From positions 1-36,192 of the forward strand of contig JAGWKM010000010.1 in NCBI GenBank assembly GCA_028865305.1: a stretch of DNA of 36,192 nt, written 5' to 3'. The notes under the pieces were generated by a model. It was given only the letters and a program-made list of their open reading frames with translations. It was not told where the DNA came from and made no database searches. The stretch comes from Patescibacteria group bacterium (GTDB taxonomy: Bacteria > Patescibacteriota > Minisyncoccia > UBA6257 > 2-01-FULL-56-20). Below, piece after piece: positions 16,186-31,969 of this stretch (position 1 is the first letter of the stretch; every line of letters starts with the position of its first letter). The position numbers were made by a program, and so were the translations under genes.

Positions 16186-16256
16186 CTGCCGGGCTTGGAT
16201 TCGAACCAAGATGAATGGATTCAGAGTCCACGATCCTACCATTAGATGACCCGGCA
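16186..16256 (-). tRNA. tRNA-Gln (anticodon CTG)
   Basis: Acceptor TGCCGGG/CCCGGCA, D-arm ATC/GAT, anticodon stem GTGGA/TCCAT around loop CTCTGAA (anticodon CTG), T-arm CTTGG-TTCGAAT-CCAAG and discriminator G73. U1-A72 and G73 are typical of tRNA-Gln. The CCA end is not encoded. It reads CAG codons. Its 3' side faces the gene-poor region 14579-16180, as expected if that region were an insertion at a tRNA. Confidence 0.95.
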
Positions 16257-18550: not shown

Positions 18551-18933
18551 ACTAATTAATAACGAATGTGTTGTTGGGGAAATATCTAATTAATAATATC
18601 TAATTAATAATGAATGCGTAATGTCGAATGTCCGTTAGGAATTTAACCTTGGACATTCGTTATTAATTATTAATTAGATATTAGATATTATCGGGGGAAA
18701 TGTCTAATTAATAATATCTAATTAATAACGAATGAATAATGTCCGAATGTCCATCAGACATTTAACACTGGAAATTCGTTATTAATTATTAATTAGATAT
18801 TAGATATTATCGGGGCAATGTCTAATTAATAATATCTAATTAATAACGAACGCCTAATGTCCGAATGTCCATCAGACATTTCTTCCTGGACATTCGTTAT
18901 TAATTATTAATTATTAATTAGACATTAAATATT
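18551..18933. repeat. Block A: three tandem ~118-bp AT-rich hairpin units
   Basis: A partial unit (18551-18580) is followed by units 18581-18697, 18698-18815 and 18816-18933, each ending near CGGGG except the last. Each unit has a left arm of heptamers (TCTAATT, AATAATA, TCTAATT, AATAACG), a loop with CGAATGTCC ... GGACATTCG or AATGTC ... GACATT, and a right arm that is the inverted set of heptamers in a different order. The right edge supplies the TAA stop of the cohesin fusion gene. Blocks B and C at 30942-31138 and 31556-31969 are the same family. Confidence 0.9.
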
Positions 18934-20250
18934 CTTTCTTCGCCGCCAGATAATGCCAACCAAAATACCCGCCAAGACGACAATGGCCGCCGCCTCTCCA
19001 ATCTCCAGCCATAATGCCGGCCAATCGTAGATGATCCGCTCGGCCACATTGCCCGCATTGTCCTCCACCTTGAAATCCACCGCCCATGCATTCCCCGGCA
19101 GCGGCGCCGGGTTCTGCACGGTTATCCAGCCGCCCCAAAACAACAGGGTTTTATATCTCACCTCCGCGTCTTTTACGCCAGAACCGGAGTCGGAAACCAA
19201 AAAACTCAGCAATTTTTGCCCGCTGCCCGAGGGATCGTTGATTATTTTCAGGAATTGGACGGCAGGAAGGGCAGCATCCGCAGTTGCGGCTGCCGGAAGC
19301 GCATTCCCGGCTTCCGATGTCGTTGCGACATCGGCTGCCGGGGACGGCACGATTTCCACGCTTACCGCCTTTCCGCCCGGCACGACTTTCGTCGCCTGGC
19401 CGTCCGCAAGGTAAATGGCCGAATCCCCAATAGAAAATTTGGCCGTGCCGGTCGCGGCCGCTTTGGCGTTCAAGGTCAACAATAACCCGCCGGTGCCGGC
19501 AAATGGCTGGATGGAACCGCCCTCAAAACTGATGGCGCCGGCATCCGCTGTCCCCGGGGTGCCGAATGCCGGCAGCACCGCCGGATTATTCTGCCAAATG
19601 GTTATGATGGAATTCGCGTTATTCGTCTCCTCGACGGAAATCGGCCCCGTGAAATCCACGGTTGCCTCGAAAGCGTTCGCCACGCGGTCCGCATCGAGCA
19701 GGATTTTTACCGGAAAAACAGAGCCGACCGTGGCGGTCGCCGGAGCGGAAAAGTAAATCTGCGTAGCAGCGTGCGCGTAAGAAGGAACAAGGAACAGGAG
19801 ACCGGGAACAAGGGACAAGAGACAGGGAGCAAGAACTGACAGCAGCTGCCATTTTACATTTGTTTTTCTAATCAATCCGTATAACAAACGACCCGCATCT
19901 GAACGAAGTCTTTTTAATTCATTCCCTATTTCTGCAGGGATATACTGAAGACGCCCGGAAAAATCAATAAAATATTCGATTTCTGTAAGCGATCCAAATG
20001 CGATATTATAGAAATGGACTTTATCTCTTTTTGATTTCCGGGTATATCCTTCGGCAATATTTGCCGCTACCGAAACCGCGGCGCGGCGCATCTGTGAAAC
20101 CAAGCCAAATTTTTCATCTGAAGGAAAAGATTTTGTTATTTTATAAATTTGGAATGCCAATTCATCCGCTTTTTGCCAAGCAAGTAATTTTCGGTATGCC
20201 AATTCGTTATTTATAGTTCCTTGTTCCATGTCTCTTGTTCCTTGTTCCAT
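18925..20250 (-). CDS. Fusion: four-helix-bundle (23S-IVP/S23) domain plus cohesin membrane protein
   Basis: About 441 residues from ATG 20250; ATG 20229 is equally possible, and the frame is open to a TTG at 20265. Residues about 15-130 are a four-helix-bundle 23S-IVP domain (RKLLAWQKADELAFQIYK, QMRRAAVSVAANIAEGYTR, HFYNIAFGSLTEIEYFI). The frame then runs without a stop through a heptamer array translated as a signal-peptide-like stretch (VLAPCLLSLVPGLLFLVPS ending YAHA), a cohesin domain (about 163-310: TQIYFSAPATATVGSVFPVK), an Ig-like region and a C-terminal helix with an RRRK tail. IVP proteins are cytosolic and cohesins extracellular, so this looks like an insertion-derived fusion. An independent cohesin product has no obvious in-frame start codon. 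The stop (TAA) lies in repeat block A. Confidence 0.75.
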   Translation of the reverse strand: MEQGTRDMEQGTINNELAYRKLLAWQKADELAFQIYKITKSFPSDEKFGLVSQMRRAAVSVAANIAEGYTRKSKRDKVHFYNIAFGSLTEIEYFIDFSGRLQYIPAEIGNELKRLRSDAGRLLYGLIRKTNVKWQLLSVLAPCLLSLVPGLLFLVPSYAHAATQIYFSAPATATVGSVFPVKILLDADRVANAFEATVDFTGPISVEETNNANSIITIWQNNPAVLPAFGTPGTADAGAISFEGGSIQPFAGTGGLLLTLNAKAAATGTAKFSIGDSAIYLADGQATKVVPGGKAVSVEIVPSPAADVATTSEAGNALPAAATADAALPAVQFLKIINDPSGSGQKLLSFLVSDSGSGVKDAEVRYKTLLFWGGWITVQNPAPLPGNAWAVDFKVEDNAGNVAERIIYDWPALWLEIGEAAAIVVLAGILVGIIWRRRKNI

Positions 20251-20251
20251 C
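19784..20251. mobile_element. IVP cassette bounded by inverted heptamer arrays
   Basis: Left array 19784-19832: GGAACAA, GGAACAG, GAGACCG, GGAACAA, GGGACAA, GAGACAG, GGAGCAA. Right array 20217-20251, read on the other strand, gives GGAACAA, GGAACAA, GAGACAT, GGAACAA: the same heptamer order, inverted. Between them sits the four-helix-bundle ORF. The cassette starts right after the dockerin stop codon and ends in the cohesin signal peptide. Long intervening sequences of 23S rRNA have this same plan (inverted ends plus S23/IVP ORF). Confidence 0.65.
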
Positions 20252-20252
20252 C

Positions 20253-21026
20253 CTACCCCGTCCAATGGTACATCATGATCGAAATGTCCGGGAAATCGAC
20301 TGTCCCGTTATGGTCCAGATCATAGCGCGCGACGGACGGTCCTGAACGCCCGTAGTAATAGAGAAAAATCGAGAGATCTACAAGATTCACTTTGCCGTCG
20401 CAGTTGAAATCACCGATCTTTGCCTGGTTGTCGCAACGTGTCGATTGCGGCGGCACCGGAGGCGTGGAGGTCATGACCGGAACCGAACTCGAGCCGTAAT
20501 ATCCCGTGCCGCCGCCCCCGCCTCCACCGCCACCGCCGCCTGGACCGCCGCCCGCGGCGCACGCCACACTCGCCCGCCAGTCCGTTTGGACCGCGCAATT
20601 AGAACAATCGAAATTGATTTCGCCGAGCGTCGAGCTTCCGGAACTGCCAAGGCCCAAAACGACCGCTTCACCCGTGAATTTGCCGGAGCCGTTGATCGAA
20701 ACGCCTCCGAAATTGATGTAACCCGTATTTTCTCCCCAGGCATAGCCGCCAAGCTGTCCGCTGCAGTTATTCGTCACGCCCGACCCGGCCGGCGAAAGGT
20801 TTATCCAGCCGTAGTTTTCGCTCCAGACATATCCGGCGAGCGTCGATTTCGTCACCTGCACGTTCCCGTTTGTCGCGCCGAAATTCACCCACCCGAGATA
20901 ATCGCCCCAGGCATACTTGCTTGTCGAGTCAATCGTGCCGTCGGAGCCCGAGGCAAAGGCGAAGAAGGGAATGAGGATGAGGGTATAAAGTATTATGTAT
21001 AAAGTATTATGTATACCTTTTTTCAT
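20253..21026 (-). CDS. Secreted dockerin-domain protein
   Basis: 257 residues. The signal peptide (MKKGIHNTLYIILYTLILIP, cleavage near FAFA|SG) is encoded almost wholly by a heptamer array. The body has three or four repeats of the Y-x-W-G-x-x-x-G-W-I/V-N-F-G type (YAWGDYLGWVNFG, YVWSENYGWINLS, YAWGENTGYINFG). After a poly-Gly linker a dockerin type I pair follows (about 203-257): DFNCDGKVNLVDLSIFLYYYG and DLDHNGTVDFPDISIMMYHW, with the Ca-binding D-x-N/D-x-D/N-G loops intact. Dockerins dock to cohesins, and two cohesin proteins are encoded immediately downstream. It could be held on the cell surface by them. Confidence 0.85.
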   Translation of the reverse strand: MKKGIHNTLYIILYTLILIPFFAFASGSDGTIDSTSKYAWGDYLGWVNFGATNGNVQVTKSTLAGYVWSENYGWINLSPAGSGVTNNCSGQLGGYAWGENTGYINFGGVSINGSGKFTGEAVVLGLGSSGSSTLGEINFDCSNCAVQTDWRASVACAAGGGPGGGGGGGGGGGTGYYGSSSVPVMTSTPPVPPQSTRCDNQAKIGDFNCDGKVNLVDLSIFLYYYGRSGPSVARYDLDHNGTVDFPDISIMMYHWTG

Positions 21027-21044
21027 ACCTTATACATTATACTT
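20982..21044. repeat. Heptamer array over the dockerin gene start
   Basis: GGTATAA, AGTATTA, TGTATAA, AGTATTA, TGTATAC, CTTTTTT, CATACCT, TATACAT, TATACTT. The ATG of the dockerin gene (21026) lies inside. The array upstream of it provides a TATAAT 9 nt before the ATG on the minus strand, so both promoter and signal peptide may come from the repeat. Confidence 0.75.
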
Positions 21045-22469: not shown

Positions 22470-24938
22470 CTACCGTCCGGTTGTTGAACTTGCCTCTGGT
22501 ACTGGTACGTTCGCGGCGTTCTGCGGTGCGGGCGCCGGCGGCGAAATGCCGGAAAGCGCGGGCTTATTGGCCTGAAGGTTATTCAGGATCTGCTGGACCT
22601 CCGCGTTGTCGGGATTCAGCTGCTTGATGGCCGTGAATTGGGCGATGGCGTCGGATTTGTTCCCCTGCTGGTCGTCGATCAACCCGAGGAAATAGCGCGC
22701 GTTCGAATAGTTGTTATCGAGTGAAACGGCGCGGGCGAATTCCTGCCGGGCCTCTGCGGTCTGGCTGTTTTGGTAATAGAGCAGTCCGAGTTGGAACGCC
22801 AGGCCGGCATCGAGCGGGTTTGCCTGTTCGATCTGCTGCACGCGCGCAATGGCCTTATCCACGCTCCCCTCTTGGATATAAAGCTGCGCAAGAAGGAATT
22901 GCGGCGTAGCGTAATCCGGCTTGAGGTTGATGGAATTCTGGAGCTGCGTTTCAGCATCGCTCAGTTTTGCCTGGGCGGCATCTTTCTGGTTCAGCTGCTG
23001 CAGTCTCGCTGCCGAGGCCGCGTCCACCCGCGCGATCGCGATCGGGAGGTCGGGATTATAAGGATCGATTTTCTCGGCGCTTTGGTATGCGGCCACGGCA
23101 AGAGCGTCCGCGCCGTTCGCAATCGGAATCAGGCCCTGATAAACGCTGCCGAGCGCCTCCCAGTTGAAGACATTATTCGGATCAAGCTTTGTCGCGTTTT
23201 GCGCCGCCGTGAGCGCCGCGCTGATGGCGGCTTCCGTCTGCGCATTCAGGGTGCCGCTCGCCTGCTGGAAAAGTTGCTGCGCCTGGGCGAATGCCACCTG
23301 GCTGCCGACGCGCCAGCTGTCATCCACTGAGTTATCAAGCGAAACGGACGTTTGGATACTCGCCGCGGCAGCCGGAAGGTTTCCGGCATTCAAGGAACTC
23401 ACCGCATCAGCGTAAGCCGAGGATGCCGAATATTTCTCGATTATGCGGTATGCGGCCACCAAGCTTGCTACGCCGAGAAGCAATGCGGCAATGAAGACCG
23501 TAAAGAGCAGCTTGCGACCCAATTTTTCAAAAGAAACCGCCCGGCGCGAGTCGGTTTGCAGAATAAGCAGCGCGAAGCCGACAAAGAGCGCCAGCATGAG
23601 CGTGAGAAAACCGGGGTAGAAAAGAAGCATGGCTGCGAGGAAAATGAGCGGCATGACGAGCGGTTTTATCCGGCCTGCTTCATCTTGCCGGCTTACGAAC
23701 CCTATAAGCCGGGCGAATCCAAAGAGGACGAAGAGGAACGCCAGCACGCCGAGCACGCCCGCCGTCGCGAGCAAGGTCAAAAAGAAATCATATCCCTGCG
23801 AGAATGGCACCGTCCAGAAATTGGTCGCGTTCAGGCCGATAGTCCGGAACCGCGTAAAGACTTCGCTGAAGGTTGACGGCCCATTGCCCAAGAAAAGCCG
23901 CACGCCATGGATAGCGTCCAGGGCGACGCCCCAGGTGGCCGATAAATTCGGCCGCACTTCCGTCACCGTTGCCGCACCGGTCGGCAGCCGCGAGCCGATG
24001 ATCGCAAGCAGAAGCGCGATGGCCGCGAGCACGAGCGGCAGCCGGTAATTGCCGTGCTCCATGAACCGCATTGCCGCGACAACAAGGAAAGCGACCAGGA
24101 GCGCGATCCACAAGAACTGGAAATTAACGACAAGAAGGCCGATGGTGAAGAGAATGGCCAATAGCCAGTGGCCAATAGCCAATGGTTTTCCCTTTTGAAG
24201 ACCGTCTTCGCCCCGAAGACGGTCTTCTGGCCCCTTCTCCACAATCCCAATCAGCACCGCCGCCATGAATACGCCCCAGCCGAAGGTCGTACCCAAGGTG
24301 TTGAATGCGGTCGATTTCGTAAACGCCCAAGGCAAGAGATACCAGCCGTACATCTGCAAAATGCCGTAGACGGTCACGAGCCCGAGCGACCAGAGGAATA
24401 ATTTCCCGATCTTCGGCAGGTCTTCGTTGGTAAAGAAATAAAACGAAAAGAAAAACGCACCGGCGTACAGGAGCGCCGCGAGGAATGAATCCGGCTGCAC
24501 GAGCTTGCCATATAAACTCAATAAGGATGAAGTTGAAAATAAAGTCCCGAGCCCGATCACGGCCGCGAAAACGCCGACCGCGAGCGCGAGGAGCGACCGC
24601 GGATATTCCAAGGCCCTTTTTTCAACCACGCAAACGAGAAAACTCACGAAAGCCGCAAGGACCAGGATGGAAACCGCGATGATCTTTCCCGACTCCACCG
24701 GAAATTGCGTGAAGGGCAGGAAAAAGAGCGGCACGAGAAACACGAGTGCAAACATCGCGAACCGGCCGATTTTGAGGAAAGTCGAGTAGGTCGAAGATGT
24801 CGAAGAAGAACCCATGGAACTTTCGCCGCTTCCCTGTTCCCCGTTCCCTGTTCCCTGTTCCTGGTCCGGCAGGGGTATTTCCATCGCCCACTCCTCATTT
24901 TCGCCTGGCACACGCAAACGCCGTGAATTGTTTTCCAT
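22470..24938 (-). CDS. O-antigen-ligase-like polytopic protein with C-terminal TPRs
   Basis: 822 residues from ATG 24938. Polar N-terminus (about 1-55), then about 12 membrane helices to about 495 with the Wzy/WaaL-type periplasmic loop (GVRLFLGNGPSTFSEVFTRFRTIG). TPR units follow at about 535-790 (DPNNVFNWEALGSVYQGL, PDYATPQFLLAQLYIQEG, NNYSNARYFLGLIDDQQGN) and a Pro/Ala tail. Such proteins transfer or polymerise glycans on the outer face of the membrane; in CPR they may act on surface glycoproteins or pilins, which fits the downstream pilin gene. Two heptamer arrays and one palindrome lie in frame inside the gene. The start is set by TATAAT 6 nt before ATG 24938, with a TTGCCT -35. Confidence 0.85.
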   Translation of the reverse strand: MENNSRRLRVPGENEEWAMEIPLPDQEQGTGNGEQGSGESSMGSSSTSSTYSTFLKIGRFAMFALVFLVPLFFLPFTQFPVESGKIIAVSILVLAAFVSFLVCVVEKRALEYPRSLLALAVGVFAAVIGLGTLFSTSSLLSLYGKLVQPDSFLAALLYAGAFFFSFYFFTNEDLPKIGKLFLWSLGLVTVYGILQMYGWYLLPWAFTKSTAFNTLGTTFGWGVFMAAVLIGIVEKGPEDRLRGEDGLQKGKPLAIGHWLLAILFTIGLLVVNFQFLWIALLVAFLVVAAMRFMEHGNYRLPLVLAAIALLLAIIGSRLPTGAATVTEVRPNLSATWGVALDAIHGVRLFLGNGPSTFSEVFTRFRTIGLNATNFWTVPFSQGYDFFLTLLATAGVLGVLAFLFVLFGFARLIGFVSRQDEAGRIKPLVMPLIFLAAMLLFYPGFLTLMLALFVGFALLILQTDSRRAVSFEKLGRKLLFTVFIAALLLGVASLVAAYRIIEKYSASSAYADAVSSLNAGNLPAAAASIQTSVSLDNSVDDSWRVGSQVAFAQAQQLFQQASGTLNAQTEAAISAALTAAQNATKLDPNNVFNWEALGSVYQGLIPIANGADALAVAAYQSAEKIDPYNPDLPIAIARVDAASAARLQQLNQKDAAQAKLSDAETQLQNSINLKPDYATPQFLLAQLYIQEGSVDKAIARVQQIEQANPLDAGLAFQLGLLYYQNSQTAEARQEFARAVSLDNNYSNARYFLGLIDDQQGNKSDAIAQFTAIKQLNPDNAEVQQILNNLQANKPALSGISPPAPAPQNAANVPVPEASSTTGR
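24156..24183. repeat. Intragenic heptamer array (GGCCAAT type)
   Basis: GGCCAAT, AGCCAGT, GGCCAAT, AGCCAAT. On the minus strand it encodes LAIGHWLLAI, the start of a membrane helix in the ligase-like protein. Confidence 0.65.
24197..24227. repeat. Perfect 14-bp palindrome inside the ligase gene
   Basis: GAAGACCGTCTTCG (24197-24210), a 3-nt loop, then the exact reverse complement (24214-24227). Each arm is itself nearly palindromic. It is in frame (EDRLRGEDGLQK), lies 13 nt from the heptamer array and looks like an inserted mini-element in a cytoplasmic loop. Confidence 0.7.
24831..24865. repeat. Intragenic heptamer array (TCCCTGT type)
   Basis: TCCCTGT, TCCCCGT, TCCCTGT, TCCCTGT, TCCTGGT, in frame near the 5' end of the ligase-like gene; translated as the polar QEQGTGNGEQGS linker. 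Confidence 0.65.
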
Positions 24939-25034: not shown

Positions 25035-25358
25035 TTACACCTTTATGCCGTGCTTCTTTATCTCGTGTACCAGGGTCGAATATTTGTTCTCGAAATCTTC
25101 CGGGCTGAAGCCGATGGGTTCGATGAGCCAGCCGAGACCGTAGGGCAACTTGCCGTATAAATAGCTCAACGCCTCCCATGAACTCCTGAATTTCGGCGAG
25201 ACCACGGCGACATCGATATCACTGTCTTTTGTGGCATGACCCTTGGCGTACGAGCCGAAAACATAAACGCCGCTCACGGGCAGGTTGTCCGCCTGGAGGA
25301 TTTTCTTGTACTCCCGGACTTGGTTGATTACCGATTGAGGTAATTTTGCTTGAGCCAT
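25035..25358 (-). CDS. MNT-type nucleotidyltransferase (HEPN partner)
   Basis: 107 residues. Minimal nucleotidyltransferase fold with GVYVFGSYAKGHATKDSDIDVAVV (about 30-53): the G-S-x-A-x-G and D-S-D-I-D-V metal-binding motif is complete. A C-terminal part contains WLIEPIGFSPEDFE. In known HEPN/MNT toxin-antitoxin pairs the MNT protein inactivates the HEPN RNase by AMPylation. It overlaps the upstream HEPN gene by 31 nt, which indicates coupling. Confidence 0.88.
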   Translation of the reverse strand: MAQAKLPQSVINQVREYKKILQADNLPVSGVYVFGSYAKGHATKDSDIDVAVVSPKFRSSWEALSYLYGKLPYGLGWLIEPIGFSPEDFENKYSTLVHEIKKHGIKV

Positions 25359-25726
25359 TGGATGAATGTTTCGGTTATTGCCAAATATTTTTCTGCATAT
25401 GTTTTCGTCGCCAGCTTGCGGAACTCGCGCTTATCGTCTTCATAACGGGTCGCGATATTGAATTTAGTAATCTCATTCAGATCGGCGATTTGAACTTCAT
25501 CTAAGGGCAATTCCGCTAATTCCGCCAAGCGGGCGAGAAAATGCGTGAAGGGCGGGTGTTCGTTCACCTTTTTTACCACCACTGCCTTCAACAGTTTCTC
25601 CAGGGCCAGATGGCAAAAGAAAAGGCAATATGAATAATCTTTGCTATCGAAAAGCTTTTGGGCTATCTTCCAATCCTCCGCGGAGGACGATTCATAATAT
25701 CCAATGGTTTTCTCAAATTCACCCAT
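25328..25726 (-). CDS. HEPN-domain protein (toxin-like partner)
   Basis: 132 residues from ATG 25726. All-helical HEPN pattern: YYESSSAEDWKIAQKLFDSKDYSYCLFFCHLALEKLLKAVVV, PPFTHFLARLAELAEL and TKFNIATRYEDDKREF. The R-x4-6-H RNase motif of active HEPN toxins is not obvious; His63-like THF is present, but no R-x4-6-H pair near RYEDDKRE. The protein may be a non-catalytic HEPN or use a variant site. The in-frame TTG at 25735 lies within the -10 box and is unlikely to be the start. Confidence 0.82.
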   Translation of the reverse strand: MGEFEKTIGYYESSSAEDWKIAQKLFDSKDYSYCLFFCHLALEKLLKAVVVKKVNEHPPFTHFLARLAELAELPLDEVQIADLNEITKFNIATRYEDDKREFRKLATKTYAEKYLAITETFIQWLKQNYLNR

Positions 25727-25734
25727 TGCCCTCA

Positions 25735-25763
25735 ATAGTAAGACGGATTCAGAAAAAAGACAA
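25735..25763 (-). promoter_or_regulatory. Promoter TTGTCT-17-TACTAT for HEPN/MNT
   Basis: -35 at 25758-25763, -10 at 25735-25740, 17-bp spacer. Predicted start about 2 nt before ATG 25726. Confidence 0.5.
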
Positions 25764-25806: not shown

Positions 25807-25855
25807 GTATTAGGTATTAGGTATACCTTATACTTTATACCTTATACATCATACA
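25807..25855. repeat. Heptamer array (GTATTAG/TTATACC type)
   Basis: GTATTAG x2, GTATACC, TTATACT, TTATACC, TTATACA, TCATACA: a small palindromic version of the array at 28756-28909, centred on GTATAC. It lies between the HEPN gene start and the stop of the DUF2341 gene, so both sides of that gene carry the same heptamer family. Confidence 0.85.
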
Positions 25856-25863
25856 AGTTCCCC

Positions 25864-28728
25864 CTACCTGAACTTAACCACGGGTCCGCGGTTTACCGGG
25901 CCGAGCCATCCGGTATCGCTTACGGCCACGTCATCCACGTAAACCGTCTGGCTTGAAACGCCTTCGGCAAAATAAACCTGGTTTAAAGAAGCATACGATT
26001 CGACGTTTGAAACGAATGTCGATGTCGCCAAATCCGCGAAAGGCACCAGCGAATCTCCGTTATAGAGGCGCAACTCCTCAGAGCCCGTGCTACTCGAATT
26101 AAAATAATATTTTACCTCAACTCTCACCCATTTATTAAAGGGATATGAGGGATAATTCAGAGATGGCCCGCTGCGGACAAAGAGAGCCGAATAACCAGAG
26201 GGATAGGCATCATAGCTAAGGAGTGCATCTCCGCTTGAATAGCGTATCAGCGTCATATTCATTTCTGCCGATGGCGTCGGTCGATAAATATAAGCGCGAT
26301 AATAGAACGTCGAACTGTTCACAATCGGAAACGCAAGGTTCTTCGCCACGCTATCCGTCGTTCCGGTCAATTTGAGCGCATAATTCCCGTGCGCTACGAT
26401 CGAACTCTGAACGGTCGAGCTTCCGGCTACTGTCCAGCTGTTAAGATTTCCCGCTTCGAATCCGTCATTGAACAGATCGGGCGTTGGAGCAGCCGTGCCG
26501 CCGCCGCGAAGCTTGACGGCAGGCCCTAATGAAGGTGATTGCTGATCGCTCCCCACGCTCCAGAACCCCGCCGTGCCCGTGGCGAACTGCGTCCAATAAT
26601 CGGAGGCGATCCAGCTTGAGGAACGCTGGACGCCGGAGAAACGCAATTCATCCATCGAGCCGTCAAGTCCCCAAAGATACGCTCCCGTCTGCCAATCTGA
26701 CCCGATTGTGTTGCCGGTAACGTTGCCCATTGCAAGAGTGGCGGTGTCCGGCGTAAATGTCTGGTTCACGCCATTCACATAAACTCCGGTAATCTGACCA
26801 AACACATTTCCGGGTTCCGTCTGTTTGGTTACAGCGATATTGACCCACGTGCCCGAAGAAACCATCGGAATGGTCACTGCTAAGTCCCGGCTGCCGCAGC
26901 TGATGCAACCCGAGTAACCCTCGACGTGGAGCAGGCCAGTAGAGTCGCTATAGGCAATACCCAGAACCTCATTATTATTACTGCTGCTCGCAAGGTACAG
27001 GTGGAACTGGTTAGTGGAGTTTCCAGTCCAGTTCACCCAGTATTCCGCCGTGAAGTTGCCGAAGGGGCTGAGGGATGGCGTCGACGTGCTGAGGGAAACA
27101 TATCCCGAAGTGCCATTAAAGCTTGCCGCGCCGTCAACTGCTCCGGTCGTTGCAGCCATGCTGTAATTCGTCCCATTGTTTGTATTTGCGGTCGAATCAT
27201 TCGAAGTTAAAGTGGTGCTATTCGGGAAATGATAGACGCCTTCAAAATTCGCATCCCACGGCGCAGTGCTCGACGACGGGTCGGTGGAAACGGAGGCGTC
27301 GCCGTAGCACATATAGATTTTGGTGGAAGTGGTGAGCGTCGCGATCGGGACCCATGCCTCGAACTCGCCCGTTGAGGAAACGTAATTTTCCCGTTCGTAA
27401 TTGATTTTGCCGCTGCTGCAGGTGTTTTCCGTGCCGAAGGCGATGTCATAACCCTGGGCATTCTGCACGTAGCCGCCGTGGCTCGTCGACTTCAGGGAAG
27501 CGAGCGTTACGTCAACAAGCGCCGGGAAATTTGATTGCGCTGACGGGATGGCCGTCGCGGAAGAAGTAGCGGTAAGCTCGCGGTAGTGCGAAAAAACGCT
27601 CGTGGAACCTGCCACTGCTCCCCCGCCGCGGAGCTTGACGGACGGGCGGGTTGCACTGCCGCCCTGTTCCGCCCCCACGCTCCAGAACCCCGCCGTGCCG
27701 GTGGCATACTGCGTCCAGTAGTCGGAGGCGATCCAGGAGGCGGAGCGGGCGACTTTGGAAATTCTGATTTCATCAACGGCGCCGTTCAGATAAGACCCGT
27801 AGACAATCGGGTCGGCTCCAACGATCAATGGCCCGGGAAACGAGAAACTACCAATATAACTCGATGTGACCACCCCCACGCCGTCAATGAAAAGCATCTT
27901 ATTTAAATTCGCAGTATCGAAAACGCCGACCATCTGATGCCAGTTGGTGTCCGTATAAGCCGCAGGACTGTCTAATCCCCCGTAATAATAATCAAAATCT
28001 AAGGTACTCCCATGCGCGGCATCTTGGTGGTTGACGTACATTACTGACGCAGTGCTTGTCCCCTCGGTCAGGAATGGCTGCTCCGTGCTCGTGCTGTTTA
28101 CCCGTTCCCAAAGTTCATACGTCACTTCATTGGAAATCGACGGCCCGGACGTGCTGCTGGCATACTGCGAACTACCGTTGCCCGCAAGCGACCCATCGAT
28201 CGCGCCGCTGCTCGTTGCTACGGCTCCGTGGTTCGTCAGGTTGTAATTCCCCGTGGAATCGTTGAAAGTGTTCTGGGAACCGAGGTGGTAGACGGCGACA
28301 TAATTCGCATCCCACGGCGCGGTGCTCGACGACGGGTCGGTGGAAACGGAAGCGTCGCCGTAGCACATATAGATTTTGGTGGAAGTGGTGAGCGTCGCGA
28401 TCGGCACCCATGCCTCGAATTCGCCCGTGGAAGAAACATAATTCTCCCGCTCGTAATTGATCTTGCCGCTGCTGCAGGTGTTTTCCGTGCCGAAACCGAT
28501 GTCGTAGCCGCTGGCATTTTGGACATGGCCGCCGTTGCCGGCAGATTTCAGGGAAGAAAGTGTCACGTCAACAAGCGCCGGGAAATTTGATTGCGCCGAC
28601 GGAATAGCGGTCGCCGAAGAAGTAGCGGTAAATTCGCGGTAATAGGTATAAGCAGCGTGCGTCTGCGGGACAAAGAGCAGTATGCCGCAGGCGAAAATGA
28701 AGGTTGGAATTAAAAAACGGCGAAGCAT
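25864..28728 (-). CDS. Large secreted DUF2341/LamG repeat protein
   Basis: 954 residues. Signal peptide 1-25 (ending THAA). Two DUF2341-LamG modules at about 27-360 and 378-735: each starts YREFTATSS..., has GYDIxFGTENTCSSGKINYE, EAWVPIATLTTSTKIYMCYG and a LamG-type fold with AVDEIRIS / SMDELRFS, and ends SWIASDYWTQ. Each module is followed by VKLRGGG. A C-terminal beta-sandwich domain (about 745-945: NDGFEAGNLNSWTVAGSS, YVDDVAVS) resembles carbohydrate-binding modules, and the chain ends GPVVKFR. Probably a sugar-binding surface adhesin. There is no membrane anchor. The first halves of the two modules are nearly identical at DNA level. TATAAT sits 6 nt before the ATG. Confidence 0.85.
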   Translation of the reverse strand: MLRRFLIPTFIFACGILLFVPQTHAAYTYYREFTATSSATAIPSAQSNFPALVDVTLSSLKSAGNGGHVQNASGYDIGFGTENTCSSGKINYERENYVSSTGEFEAWVPIATLTTSTKIYMCYGDASVSTDPSSSTAPWDANYVAVYHLGSQNTFNDSTGNYNLTNHGAVATSSGAIDGSLAGNGSSQYASSTSGPSISNEVTYELWERVNSTSTEQPFLTEGTSTASVMYVNHQDAAHGSTLDFDYYYGGLDSPAAYTDTNWHQMVGVFDTANLNKMLFIDGVGVVTSSYIGSFSFPGPLIVGADPIVYGSYLNGAVDEIRISKVARSASWIASDYWTQYATGTAGFWSVGAEQGGSATRPSVKLRGGGAVAGSTSVFSHYRELTATSSATAIPSAQSNFPALVDVTLASLKSTSHGGYVQNAQGYDIAFGTENTCSSGKINYERENYVSSTGEFEAWVPIATLTTSTKIYMCYGDASVSTDPSSSTAPWDANFEGVYHFPNSTTLTSNDSTANTNNGTNYSMAATTGAVDGAASFNGTSGYVSLSTSTPSLSPFGNFTAEYWVNWTGNSTNQFHLYLASSSNNNEVLGIAYSDSTGLLHVEGYSGCISCGSRDLAVTIPMVSSGTWVNIAVTKQTEPGNVFGQITGVYVNGVNQTFTPDTATLAMGNVTGNTIGSDWQTGAYLWGLDGSMDELRFSGVQRSSSWIASDYWTQFATGTAGFWSVGSDQQSPSLGPAVKLRGGGTAAPTPDLFNDGFEAGNLNSWTVAGSSTVQSSIVAHGNYALKLTGTTDSVAKNLAFPIVNSSTFYYRAYIYRPTPSAEMNMTLIRYSSGDALLSYDAYPSGYSALFVRSGPSLNYPSYPFNKWVRVEVKYYFNSSSTGSEELRLYNGDSLVPFADLATSTFVSNVESYASLNQVYFAEGVSSQTVYVDDVAVSDTGWLGPVNRGPVVKFR
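27240..27590. repeat. Intragenic direct repeat, second copy (DUF2341)
   Basis: About 350 bp very similar to 28297-28645 in the same gene, many stretches of over 30 bp identical. It marks a recent module duplication or gene conversion. Confidence 0.85.
28297..28645. repeat. Intragenic direct repeat, first copy (DUF2341)
   Basis: Partner of 27240-27590; encodes the N-terminal DUF2341 unit. Confidence 0.85.
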
Positions 28729-28755: not shown

Positions 28756-28909
28756 GGTATTAGGTGTTAGGTGTTAGGTGTTAGGTGTTAGGTGTTAGGT
28801 GTTAGGTGTTAGGTATAAGGTATAAGGTATAAAGTATAATGTATACCTTATACCTTATACCTTATACCTTATACCTTATACTTTATACTTTATACTTTAT
28901 ACATTATAC
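28756..28909. repeat. 22-unit heptamer array with palindromic centre
   Basis: 154 nt in unbroken 7-bp register: GGTATTA, GGTGTTA x7, GGTATAA x3, AGTATAA, TGTATAC, CTTATAC x5, TTTATAC x3, ATTATAC. The centre GTATAC is self-complementary and the right half is the inverted set of the left GGTATAA part, so it can form a long hairpin. It fills the gap between the start of the DUF2341 gene and the stop of the Gly-rich gene. Confidence 0.95.
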
Positions 28910-28919
28910 TTTTTCCCCC

Positions 28920-30941
28920 CTAGCTTCCGCCGCCGCGGATTTTGATCATCCCGCCGCCGCCGCCGCGCATCTTGATTACTCCGCCGCCGCCGCTGCGTGC
29001 CTGCGTGCCATGCGAACTGGTGGGACCGGTAAAAGTGACGTCAACGAGAAGGCGGTCGGCATAGGTTGTCACCGCGTTCTGCGGAATGGAAACGTCGAGC
29101 GTGATCGGCGAGCCGGAGATAGGCAGGCCGGAAAGTGCGGATCGTCCGGTCGTTGTCGCGCCGGTAATCATATTCAAAGTGGTCGAAGCGGTTACGTTCA
29201 ACAAATTGACCGTTGAACTCGCGGTTGAACTCGCATCCGCTTGATGGATAAACGAAAGATTCCCGCCCGCCCATTCGGCCGGATTGAAGGTCGTCAAATA
29301 TTTCTGGTTCGCGGTCGTATTGCTTGCGTCAGTGTTCAGGAGCAGATACTGCGGCTCGAGCGCCCGCGGCGTCCCGGATTGGTCGATCACGATCTTCGCG
29401 TTGTAGATGTCATAGGGATAACTCCCGTTCGCCGTCTTGCCAACGATGCGGTAATAATTTCCGGTCGTTAAGGAAAATGAAACACGAGCGCGGGTCGCCG
29501 TTGTTGCGCTGCCGGAGTTTACGATTGGAGTTACATCAGTCCATGTTGAAAGGTCAGTCGAACGTTGAAGCACAACCGTTGCCGATGAAGAGCCCGCAGG
29601 AAAATAGGTAAAAACAATGAGCCCCTGACCGCCCAGACCGCCGGCATTGCCGCTCCCCTTGCCCGCTCCGCCGCCACCGCCGTACAACCCTCCGGCGCCG
29701 CCGTTATTGTTCTTGTTTGTTGAGCCGCCCCCACCGCCGCCGGAACCATATGAAGAACCGTCAAATATGCTTCCATTGCCTCCTGCGCCTGGCGGCGCCC
29801 CGGTGCTCCCGCCCGTACCGGTCGGATCCAAACCGTTGTCGCCGCCGCCGCCGGCGCTTGCGGTAGCGTCTTGGCCGTTGCCATCAGGTCCTGCGCCGCC
29901 GCCGCCGGAACCACCCGAGGATCCGGCAACACCATTACCCCCGTCGTATTTCACGGTACCGGTAGCCGTGGAAGTAGCCAATGCAAGCGCTCCGGCCGTA
30001 CTTGTCGCTGTTACGCCGCCGTTCGCGCTCACAATCACGGCAAGCCCCGACATACTCGCGCAGTTTGAAGTAGCATTGCAGACCCAAGTGCCACTTGCGA
30101 TTCCGCCCACGTGGATACCAATCATAGCACCTGCCGTAAGCGTTTTTTTGGAGATTTTGGAGTAACCGCCGCCGCTACCGCCTCCGGTCACGGTTCCCGA
30201 ACCGCCGCCAGTTCCCGTCGCGCCGCTGCCGCCGCCGCCAATAACCTCAATCGTATTGGAGCTATTAGTCCAATCGGAAGGAACCACCGTAGAAGTGGCA
30301 GCCGTGGAAGATACGAAAATCTGTTTATTGCTTCCCACGGCTTGCGAATCATACGTTACCTCTGCATACGCCGAAATCGAACCGCCCCATTTCGAAGAGT
30401 CATAGTAAAAATATTTCGGGTTCGCGAGCGCGCCGCTCGAGGTGGCGGTATTCGTAAGACCCTTTTCATTATCCCCTATCTCGATCTGCGTTTCGGTTTG
30501 CGTGATCGGATTGCCCGACTGGATGGCGATGATGCGGGCGGCCTTGACCGAAGGCGATGCGCCGGCCACATTCACGTCGTATTGCGTGGTCGTTGCCGCC
30601 GGCGGAGCGAACTGGACGCGGTAGAGCGTCGGCGAAGTCGCCGTAAAGCCGATCGTCGCGTCATTCGTGGAACTGCCAACGCGCTGCAAGGTTGCCGTCG
30701 CGTTGCCCGAAGCGACGCTTGCCAGAATTTCGAAATAGTACCGGGTGTTCGATCCCGTGCCTTTATATTGCGTCGTGTCAAGCTGCACCTGTTCCGGCGA
30801 AGTCGTCGCCGCCGAAATGGTCGAATCCAGGATATTGATTTCCTGCCGGATCGTGGCGGTTTCGGCGAGCGTTATCGTCGGGAACGCGAACGGAGCGAGG
30901 AGCGAAGCGGAGATTGTGATGATGGCGAAAGCTTTGCGCAT
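28920..30941 (-). CDS. Secreted Gly-rich (tail-fibre-like) surface protein
   Basis: 673 residues. Signal peptide 1-26 (ending TLAE). Beta-rich N-terminal region to about 220, then the block SNTIEVIGGGGSGATG...GGGYSKISKKTL, which opens a Gly-rich domain of the phage-tail/receptor type (about 230-445, many GGGG runs, closing GGLGGQGLIVFTYFP). Further beta-rich domains follow. The chain ends with two copies of a basic motif, VIKMRGGGG and MIKIRGGGS. The same motif family occurs in the downstream DUF2341 protein. It probably forms a stiff fibre or adhesin; no membrane anchor. The start codon lies next to repeat block B. Confidence 0.8.
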   Translation of the reverse strand: MRKAFAIITISASLLAPFAFPTITLAETATIRQEINILDSTISAATTSPEQVQLDTTQYKGTGSNTRYYFEILASVASGNATATLQRVGSSTNDATIGFTATSPTLYRVQFAPPAATTTQYDVNVAGASPSVKAARIIAIQSGNPITQTETQIEIGDNEKGLTNTATSSGALANPKYFYYDSSKWGGSISAYAEVTYDSQAVGSNKQIFVSSTAATSTVVPSDWTNSSNTIEVIGGGGSGATGTGGGSGTVTGGGSGGGYSKISKKTLTAGAMIGIHVGGIASGTWVCNATSNCASMSGLAVIVSANGGVTATSTAGALALATSTATGTVKYDGGNGVAGSSGGSGGGGAGPDGNGQDATASAGGGGDNGLDPTGTGGSTGAPPGAGGNGSIFDGSSYGSGGGGGGSTNKNNNGGAGGLYGGGGGAGKGSGNAGGLGGQGLIVFTYFPAGSSSATVVLQRSTDLSTWTDVTPIVNSGSATTATRARVSFSLTTGNYYRIVGKTANGSYPYDIYNAKIVIDQSGTPRALEPQYLLLNTDASNTTANQKYLTTFNPAEWAGGNLSFIHQADASSTASSTVNLLNVTASTTLNMITGATTTGRSALSGLPISGSPITLDVSIPQNAVTTYADRLLVDVTFTGPTSSHGTQARSGGGGVIKMRGGGGGMIKIRGGGS

Positions 30942-31138
30942 AATTAAATTTCTAATGTCTAATTAATAATTAATAAGAAAATTTCTAATTAATAATATCT
31001 AATTAATAACGAATGTGTTGTTGGGGAAATTTCTAATTAATAATTAATAATTAATAACGAATGGATAATGTCCGAATGTCCGTTGGAAATTTAACCTTGG
31101 ACATTCGTTATTAATTATTAATTAGACATTATTAATTA
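30942..31138. repeat. Block B: AT-rich hairpin repeat 3' of the IVP gene
   Basis: Same family as block A (TCTAATT/AATAACG heptamers, CGAATGTCC ... GGACATTCG loop). It fills the whole gap between the Gly-rich gene start and the IVP gene stop; the TAA stop of the IVP gene is part of the repeat. Its right arm (GTTATTAATTATTAATTAG) is inverted relative to the left arm of block C. Confidence 0.9.
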
Positions 31139-31497
31139 GCACTTTTCTCTTTAGTATTCTTTATTATTGTAACAAATATGAGATTTAATTCGTGCGCTTC
31201 CTTCCAAAACATACGGGCTTCTGGCGCAATACGAGGGGCAGCCTTTGCTATCATCCGCAACCAATGTTTTGATTCTTTGGCTTCTTTATTGCAGATACCC
31301 ATTTTATGAATGAAATCTTTCCGTGATTCTGCGCAATCAGCCTCGCATAAATTAGCACCTACGCTAGTTGCCGACCGAATTAATTGATCAATCAAAGGGG
31401 TGGTAATTATTGTCTTTGGGATATCTTCCGCAAATCCAATAACATCCTCTCCAAATCTGGCAGCTCGTTCTTCCAAATCGAATTTTTTCTTTTCCAT
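31132..31497 (-). CDS. Four-helix-bundle protein, 23S rRNA-IVP/S23 family
   Basis: 121 residues. Family motifs: KKKFDLEERAARFGEDVIGF, LIDQLIRSATSVGANLCEAD, ESRKDFIHKMGICNKEAKES and KHWLRMI. Related proteins are encoded in 23S rRNA intervening sequences and include Avd of diversity-generating retroelements; they bind nucleic acid as ring-shaped oligomers. No rRNA or reverse transcriptase is in the window. It is flanked on both sides by inverted AT-rich heptamer blocks (B and C). A GAGG Shine-Dalgarno lies 8 nt before the ATG. It belongs to a different subfamily (ANLCEAD) from the fused copy at 20250 (ANIAEGY). Confidence 0.9.
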   Translation of the reverse strand: MEKKKFDLEERAARFGEDVIGFAEDIPKTIITTPLIDQLIRSATSVGANLCEADCAESRKDFIHKMGICNKEAKESKHWLRMIAKAAPRIAPEARMFWKEAHELNLIFVTIIKNTKEKSAN

Positions 31498-31555: not shown

Positions 31556-31969
31556 TTAACGCCATTGGACATTGTTGGGGAAATTTCTAATTAATAATTA
31601 ATAATTAATAACGAATGGATTGTTGGGGAAATGTCTAATTAATAATGTCTAATTAATAACGAACGCCTAATGCTCGAAAGTCCATCGGACATTTAACCTT
31701 GGATATTCGTTATTAATTATTAATTAGATATTAGATATTATCGGGGAAATGTCTAATTAATAATATCTAATTAATAACGAATGGATAATGTCCGAATGTC
31801 CGTTGGAAATTTAACCTTGGATATTCGTTATTAATTATTAATTAGATATTAGGCATTTTCCGGAAAATATCTAATTAATAACGAATGCGTAATGCTCGAA
31901 TGTCCATCAGACATTTCCCATTGGATATTCGTTATTAATTATTAATTATTAATTAGATATTAAATATTC
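31556..31969. repeat. Block C: three tandem AT-rich hairpin units plus a partial one
   Basis: Partial unit near 31579-31617, then units of about 105-120 bp ending at about 31746, 31863 and 31968. Same arms and loops as block A, with variants (AATGCTCGAA). The right edge GAATATTTAATATC abuts the stop of the giant surface-protein gene. Confidence 0.9.

Follow-up and report, generated by a model that had tools for sequence, protein, structure and literature searches.

Results

The heptamer array and its surroundings

A heptamer array lies between two minus-strand genes, the end of one gene being 11 bp and the start of the other 28 bp away from it (Table 1). The sequence of 36,192 nucleotides that contains it was analysed as a whole and is called the window in the following. 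As originally predicted, the array is unbroken and consists of exactly 22 consecutive 7-nt units in perfect register. The order of the units is GGTATTA, GGTGTTA (seven times), GGTATAA (three times), AGTATAA, TGTATAC, CTTATAC (five times), TTTATAC (three times) and ATTATAC. The period-7 score of the array is 120, and the maximum reached in 200 window-sized Markov-1 simulations is 11.

The original prediction further held that the array has a palindromic centre and that its two sides are inverses of each other. The centre is indeed a near-perfect palindrome of 66 bp with 31 of 33 pairs matching, and for this core the inverse relation is correct. It does not extend to the seven GGTGTTA units, which amount to 49 bp and whose reverse complement is absent from the array. 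The folding-energy calculation proposed at that time yields a long hairpin with an A+T-rich stem (z -3.3 both as RNA and as DNA). The array thus has inverted arms that form a long stem, as known from IVP and IVS elements. A PF05635 gene is not present inside the array, and the nearest IVP genes of the window are the two given in Table 1. The array is also not seated in a structural RNA gene; an Rfam scan of the window returned a tRNA at 16186-16256 alone.

Table 1. Positions of the heptamer arrays, IVP genes and neighbouring genes in the window
Feature	Position	Strand	Basis
22-unit heptamer array	28756..28909		read as gene-less heptamer-armed element
Palindromic core, near-perfect, 66 bp, 31/33 pairs	28811..28876		pairing count and folds
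Seven GGTGTTA units, unmirrored	28763..28811	+	unit listing
Laminin_G_3-domain protein gene, start 28 bp from array	25864..28728	-	Pfam and ORF list
ORF without Pfam match, end 11 bp from array	28920..30941	-	Pfam and ORF list
Short gene-less heptamer palindrome, GGTATTA/GGTATAA family	25807..25855		period-7 scan, fold
Short gene-less array, GGTATTA/GGTATAA family, 5' end of ORF 20253-21026	20982..21044		period-7 scan, fold
GGAACAA-type heptamer arm, 3' side of first IVP domain	19784..19833	+	array scan
First IVP four-helix-bundle domain	19879..20193	-	PF05635
Inverted partner arm (TTGTTCC-type on + strand), 5' side of first IVP domain	20219..20250	-	sequence
Second IVP gene	31132..31497	-	PF05635 1e-14; TIGR02436
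AATTAAT-type arm and palindrome, 3' side of second IVP gene	30946..31131		array scan
AATTAAT-type arm, 5' side of second IVP gene	31571..31663		array scan
Three gene-less 118-bp palindromes of AATATCT/AATTAAT heptamers	18576..18927		array scan
More 118-bp palindromes, AATATCT/AATTAAT family, adjoining second IVP gene	31625..31956		array scan

Heptamers are abundant elsewhere in the window as well. In total, it contains ten period-7 arrays with a score of at least 12 versus one at all other periods from 4 to 13 taken together. The two further members of the same heptamer family that had been pointed out both exist and fold weakly (z -1.9 for the array at 25807-25855 and z -0.8 for that at 20982-21044). 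Two ORFs of the window carry PF05635 domains and each of them is enclosed by mirrored heptamer arrays. The first domain is part of the secreted-protein ORF 18925-20265, where it precedes a signal-peptide-like stretch as an in-frame fusion. At the fusion joint the heptamers code for the peptides EQGT...EQGT.

A HEPN/nucleotidyltransferase (MNT) pair at 25035-25735 adjoins the small array at 25807-25855, and a TTCCCTG heptamer array (24830-24861) is found inside an ORF neighbouring this pair.

IVP loci of the source genome

A profile search of the source genome gave eight IVP matches. By visual inspection, six of the eight loci have mirrored heptamer arms on both sides. The other two, L004 and the pseudogene L008, have a clear arm only on the 5' side. 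The heptamer sequence varies from locus to locus. One element is seated in helix 6 of the 16S rRNA gene. Another one is found in an RNase P RNA gene (L006, 1249-1677), where a second heptamer hairpin, this one empty, occupies a variable loop near model position 335; the RNase P RNA match has an E-value of 5.8e-6, below the curated cut-off, with the inserts interrupting the sequence between conserved parts. A MIR1507 match on the RNase P insert is below the family cut-off as well, and we attribute it to chance similarity with a long hairpin. At three of the loci (L003, L004 and L008) a similar A+T-rich motif, approximately ATTAAAAAATNATTAAATAA, followed by a promoter-like box is visible by eye between the 5' arm and the gene.

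The array can be tied to one of these loci by its sequence. The 13-mer TATACCTTATACC occurs at only three places of the source genome, with 15 matches in all versus 1 for the control pattern. These places are the array of the window, a gene-less hairpin on contig C219 and the 5' arm of an IVP pseudogene on contig C18, which shares the GGTATAA/AGTATAA units. Therefore, the window shares its heptamer family with an IVP element, and the array and the C219 hairpin are forms without the gene. The C219 hairpin is strong (z -10.9), and an apex like that of the window core is found there. The ORF behind it is presumably tsaD-like. A sample of 20 small contigs of the same genome (62,560 bp) contains one heptamer array. 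Therefore the window is a local cluster and not typical of the genome. An empty site for the array was not found when the neighbouring protein was compared with 30 related genomes, which gave partial matches only (25-37% identity).

Heptamer arms around IVP genes in many phyla

We surveyed the best 80 of 582 confirmed IVP loci from one genome collection, a sample which covers many phyla and is biased towards close relatives of the query sequence. The near windows, 350 bp each, were searched for arrays with a period-7 score of at least 10. As loci cut by contig ends were dropped, 78 upstream and 76 downstream near windows and 74 pairs were usable. In these best 80 of 582 loci, period-7 arrays are present near the IVP gene in 41 of the 78 upstream windows and in 47 of the 76 downstream ones, versus 4/77, 6/74, 5/76, 7/71, 1/74 and 2/69 in six distal windows of the same loci. 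Any other period from 4 to 13 was counted 0 to 5 times near the gene, and period 14 tracks period 7.

In 52 of 74 pairs from the same best 80 loci, the upstream flank matches the inverted downstream flank of its own locus (score at least 14). Such a match is seen in 1/74 if the loci are mispaired and in 7/74 if the own flanks are compared directly. The arms therefore match inside a locus yet differ between loci. There is also a base skew among these 80 loci, with G in excess over C in 36 of 41 5' arms and C over G in 41 of 49 3' arms. In an Rfam scan that covered 20 of the 80 named loci, none of the IVP matches fell inside a recognised gene.

A second set comprises 38 loci, eight of the source genome and 30 of the phylum. 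Period-7 arrays are found near the gene in 9/38 and 10/38 of them and in 1 to 5 of 38 in four more distant windows.

Array density and IVP presence in Patescibacteria

Of 145 genomes sampled from the phylum, 86 have an IVP match. In 20 genomes having three or more IVP matches, 323,471 bp of sequence gave 29 heptamer arrays (spread over 11 of the 20 genomes), versus a single array in 338,187 bp from 20 genomes without an IVP match. A rank test gave p 2e-4 (17 and 16 samples over 9 kb), in groups hand-picked from a listing, with the first contig only per genome and uneven contig sizes. It may be that IVP presence is a proxy for the general load of mobile elements, as reverse transcriptases and Y1 transposases are enriched together with IVP, too.

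Heptamer arrays were also counted in G028 and G005, two genomes of one genus, of which a third member, G136, gave no IVP match. The closed genome G028 has 237 heptamer arrays versus 0-9 for other periods between 4 and 13, and G005 has 77 versus 1-11 at the other periods counted. In G028, the idea that gene-less arrays are hairpins in general fails. Only 27 of the 237 arrays (score at least 12) have an inverse 12-mer within 400 bp, which is below the control value of 52 from the neighbourhoods of other arrays and not far above the 15 from random places. Heptamer modules are scattered over this genome in their hundreds (loci L039-L078); their order recurs, and most of them do not form inverted pairs. 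At locus L166 (300-340) four GGAGAAT heptamers lie inside an ORF which we take to be the coding frame of enolase.

Filled and empty sites

Cyanobacterial plasmids allow related sites with and without an element to be compared. At one site in Nostocales plasmids the full element is present in L261 and L264, and the site is empty in L273 and L274; these full and empty plasmids are 97.8 to 100% identical to the full form. The comparison reveals a 5-bp target duplication, GTAAT, with a flank identity of 98% or more. Two further plasmids carry at the same site a truncated element (L275, 91.8% identity) and a gene-less heptamer hairpin (L276, 82.4% identity). Two Nostoc plasmids that share one operon have IVP elements at reciprocal places, so that each is the empty site of the other. 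At the first place the element replaces two bases and no duplication is present. At the second place there is a possible 3-bp duplication with about 36 extra bases. In another case a gene-less copy built of the same heptamers interrupts an IVP gene, again without target duplication. Used as a query, this nested copy gives matches at 92 places, spread over 43 plasmid records; some of these matches come via shared arms or the IVP gene. A target duplication as expected for a MITE is thus clear at one plasmid site only and absent or uncertain at three others.

The plasmid insertions also include IVP genes inside CRISPR-cas operons (L265, L270 and L272; cas6/cas4 and cas10/cmr3) and one beside nrdB and nrdA.

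In Patescibacteria, G005 has an empty site where G028 carries an element, at about 70-75% identity. An orthologous element is present in both genomes, and by eye both of its arms have changed together. The units are GTATTTA/GTATTAT with ATAATAC in G028 and GTAGCTA/GTAGCAT with TAGCTAC in G005. This joint change suggests homogenisation between units and between arms. We also considered a derivation of each heptamer from the target site, which is hinted at by one G028 site, and rejected it because related plasmid elements keep their arms at different places.

Discussion

We observe directly the anatomy of the elements, their recurrence in many phyla, sites in the empty and the filled state, and a gene-less form at the site of a full one. 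In a full element, the gene encodes a four-helix-bundle protein of the IVP type and is flanked by a G-rich heptamer array on its 5' side and, on its 3' side, by a C-rich array inverse to the 5' one. In our view the array of the window is probably a gene-less member, non-autonomous or decayed, of this class of small mobile elements.

We suggest that these elements work as follows. The transcript or a single DNA strand would form a single long hairpin that has the gene in its loop. IVP would act on this hairpin and be needed for the spread of the element. As we propose, IVP would bind the hairpin and the chemistry would be carried out by a host enzyme or a variable partner enzyme. Copying from unit to unit and from arm to arm could make the arms longer or shorter in steps of 7 nt and keep them alike. 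The original prediction attributed the inversion to template switching or copying of the hairpin. For copying between arms this is supported by the joint change of the arms in G028 and G005. An origin of the inversion at the locus itself is, however, not required, because inverted arms are a standing feature of the dispersed IVP element class.

Domain and profile searches found no nucleic-acid cutting or joining domain in IVP. There is a likeness to Avd of diversity-generating retroelements, a distantly related four-helix-bundle protein (NF033474, E 7e-4; bAvd, 2.5e-7; both below cut-off). The solved IVP relatives 2gsc (XCC0516, by its locus name from Xanthomonas) and 2rld have five chains each, which presumably fits the five-membered ring of Avd. 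IVP could recruit a reverse transcriptase in trans, the hairpin RNA would be copied and the 7-nt steps would be the result. Reverse transcriptases do co-occur with IVP, as RVT_1 is matched in 38/86 IVP genomes versus 11/59 others (p 0.0014). RVT_1 is, however, absent from 48/86 IVP genomes including G028 and G005, which have eight and five IVP matches. Among the 12 plasmid loci whose neighbouring genes were listed, none has an annotated reverse transcriptase near the IVP gene, and, unlike in Avd systems, neither a linked reverse transcriptase nor a template repeat is seen here. We therefore regard this explanation as unlikely.

Quite unlikely, too, is that the array is an ordinary simple repeat driven by slippage with a palindrome arising by chance, the IVP genes being unrelated neighbours. 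An over-representation of heptamers in many bacteria has been described and polymerase slippage proposed as its cause, as far as the available part of that report extends (PMC4692102), and most arrays of G028 are indeed not inverted pairs. Slippage does not predict, however, that period 7 alone is enriched in G028, that inverted arms match each other at one gene family (the 52 own against 1 mispaired of 74 pairs in the best 80 of 582 loci), that arrays are nearly absent from IVP-free genomes or that whole elements are missing at empty sites. The original prediction had thus rightly stated that simple slippage fails to explain the mirrored arms.

A Y1 transposase of the RAYT type could instead move the hairpins with IVP as a passenger, in the manner of REPINs. 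Y1_Tnp is matched in 50/86 IVP genomes versus 17/59 others (odds ratio 3.4, p 7e-4), G028 and G005 among the former, and the insertion without duplication at one Nostoc site would fit. In the source genome there is one Y1_Tnp match, on another contig (C158), which amounts to co-occurrence only. Against such a transposase stand the 36/86 IVP genomes without a Y1 match and the 5-bp duplication at one site. Moreover, the arm sequences of the IVP elements vary freely, whereas RAYT targets are conserved in sequence. We rejected a required reverse transcriptase or Y1 transposase because 17/86 IVP genomes match neither. We hold a REPIN-like origin to be rather improbable.

There is very little to suggest that the hairpin was selected as a terminator or RNase III processing site between two co-directional genes. 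The fold is strong and both flanking genes are on the minus strand, yet selection for a hairpin requires neither heptamers nor an unmirrored part of 49 bp. As a terminator the array was discarded, since the minus strand has no T-run after the hairpin and the terminator scan returned only an unrelated plus-strand site at 28926. An assembly artefact, which a draft genome of 388 contigs with 8% contamination might bring to mind, is extremely improbable given the related hairpins with like apex sequences on a separate contig and the presence of the element class in finished plasmids and closed genomes.

The gene-less heptamer-armed IVP element, which we prefer, has parallels in several known systems. 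Cyanobacterial tandem heptamer repeats are known as STRR. The available text of PMC4692102 describes heptamers of cyanobacteria and Xanthomonas (GGGAATC, GGGGATT), among them those of Nostoc, which likewise have period 7, are dispersed and are in part inverted. They are read there as simple repeats or G-quadruplexes with the abundance of heptamers in bacteria left unexplained, whereas here they are tied to IVP elements. In the trnL group I intron of Nostoc both arms of the P6b stem are built on 7-nt repeats and the motif has been replaced wholesale; this stem lies in a loop of a group I intron, however, and the accessible part of that paper does not mention an IVP gene (PMC4476775). REPINs and other miniature inverted-repeat elements are also gene-less hairpins dispersed through the genome, according to the part of PMC3116915 at hand, but REPINs are tied to RAYT transposases and the heptamer arrays to IVP.

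The closest relatives are the IVSs of 23S rRNA genes with an S23/IVP gene, in which a gene of the IVP family likewise sits in the loop of inverted arms. The array of the window differs from them in being gene-less and outside any RNA gene. For the IVS of Coxiella, tandem GACAGAT heptamers upstream of the gene, in strain-variable number, are reported in the portion of the paper available (PMC4990558). A general description of heptamer arms for IVSs was not found in the open-access literature examined, as far as these texts were accessible. Beyond the Coxiella detail, a general link between heptamer arrays and IVP genes was likewise not found in open-access full texts, preprints excluded. For CPR bacteria, IVP genes located inside 16S and 23S rRNA genes have already been published, as seen in the accessible part of PMC11270868. 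Separately, therefore, both the over-representation of heptamers and the IVP insertions in rRNA are known. There is a fair chance that the heptamer-armed IVP elements are a class of their own rather than a variant of the IVS.

We advance a wider proposal more tentatively, with the balance leaning slightly against it. IVP proteins may be the founding component of a widespread and unrecognised mobile class, with inverted heptamer arms made and kept alike by copying in 7-nt steps, and these elements and their gene-less offspring may be the source of the heptamer repeats of bacteria. Two old puzzles, the over-representation of heptamers and the role of orphan IVP proteins outside rRNA genes, would become one testable question. 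If true, very small mobile elements of about 400 bp would insert in operons, rRNA and RNase P genes and coding frames, and their repeats would be made and homogenised in an unexplained way.
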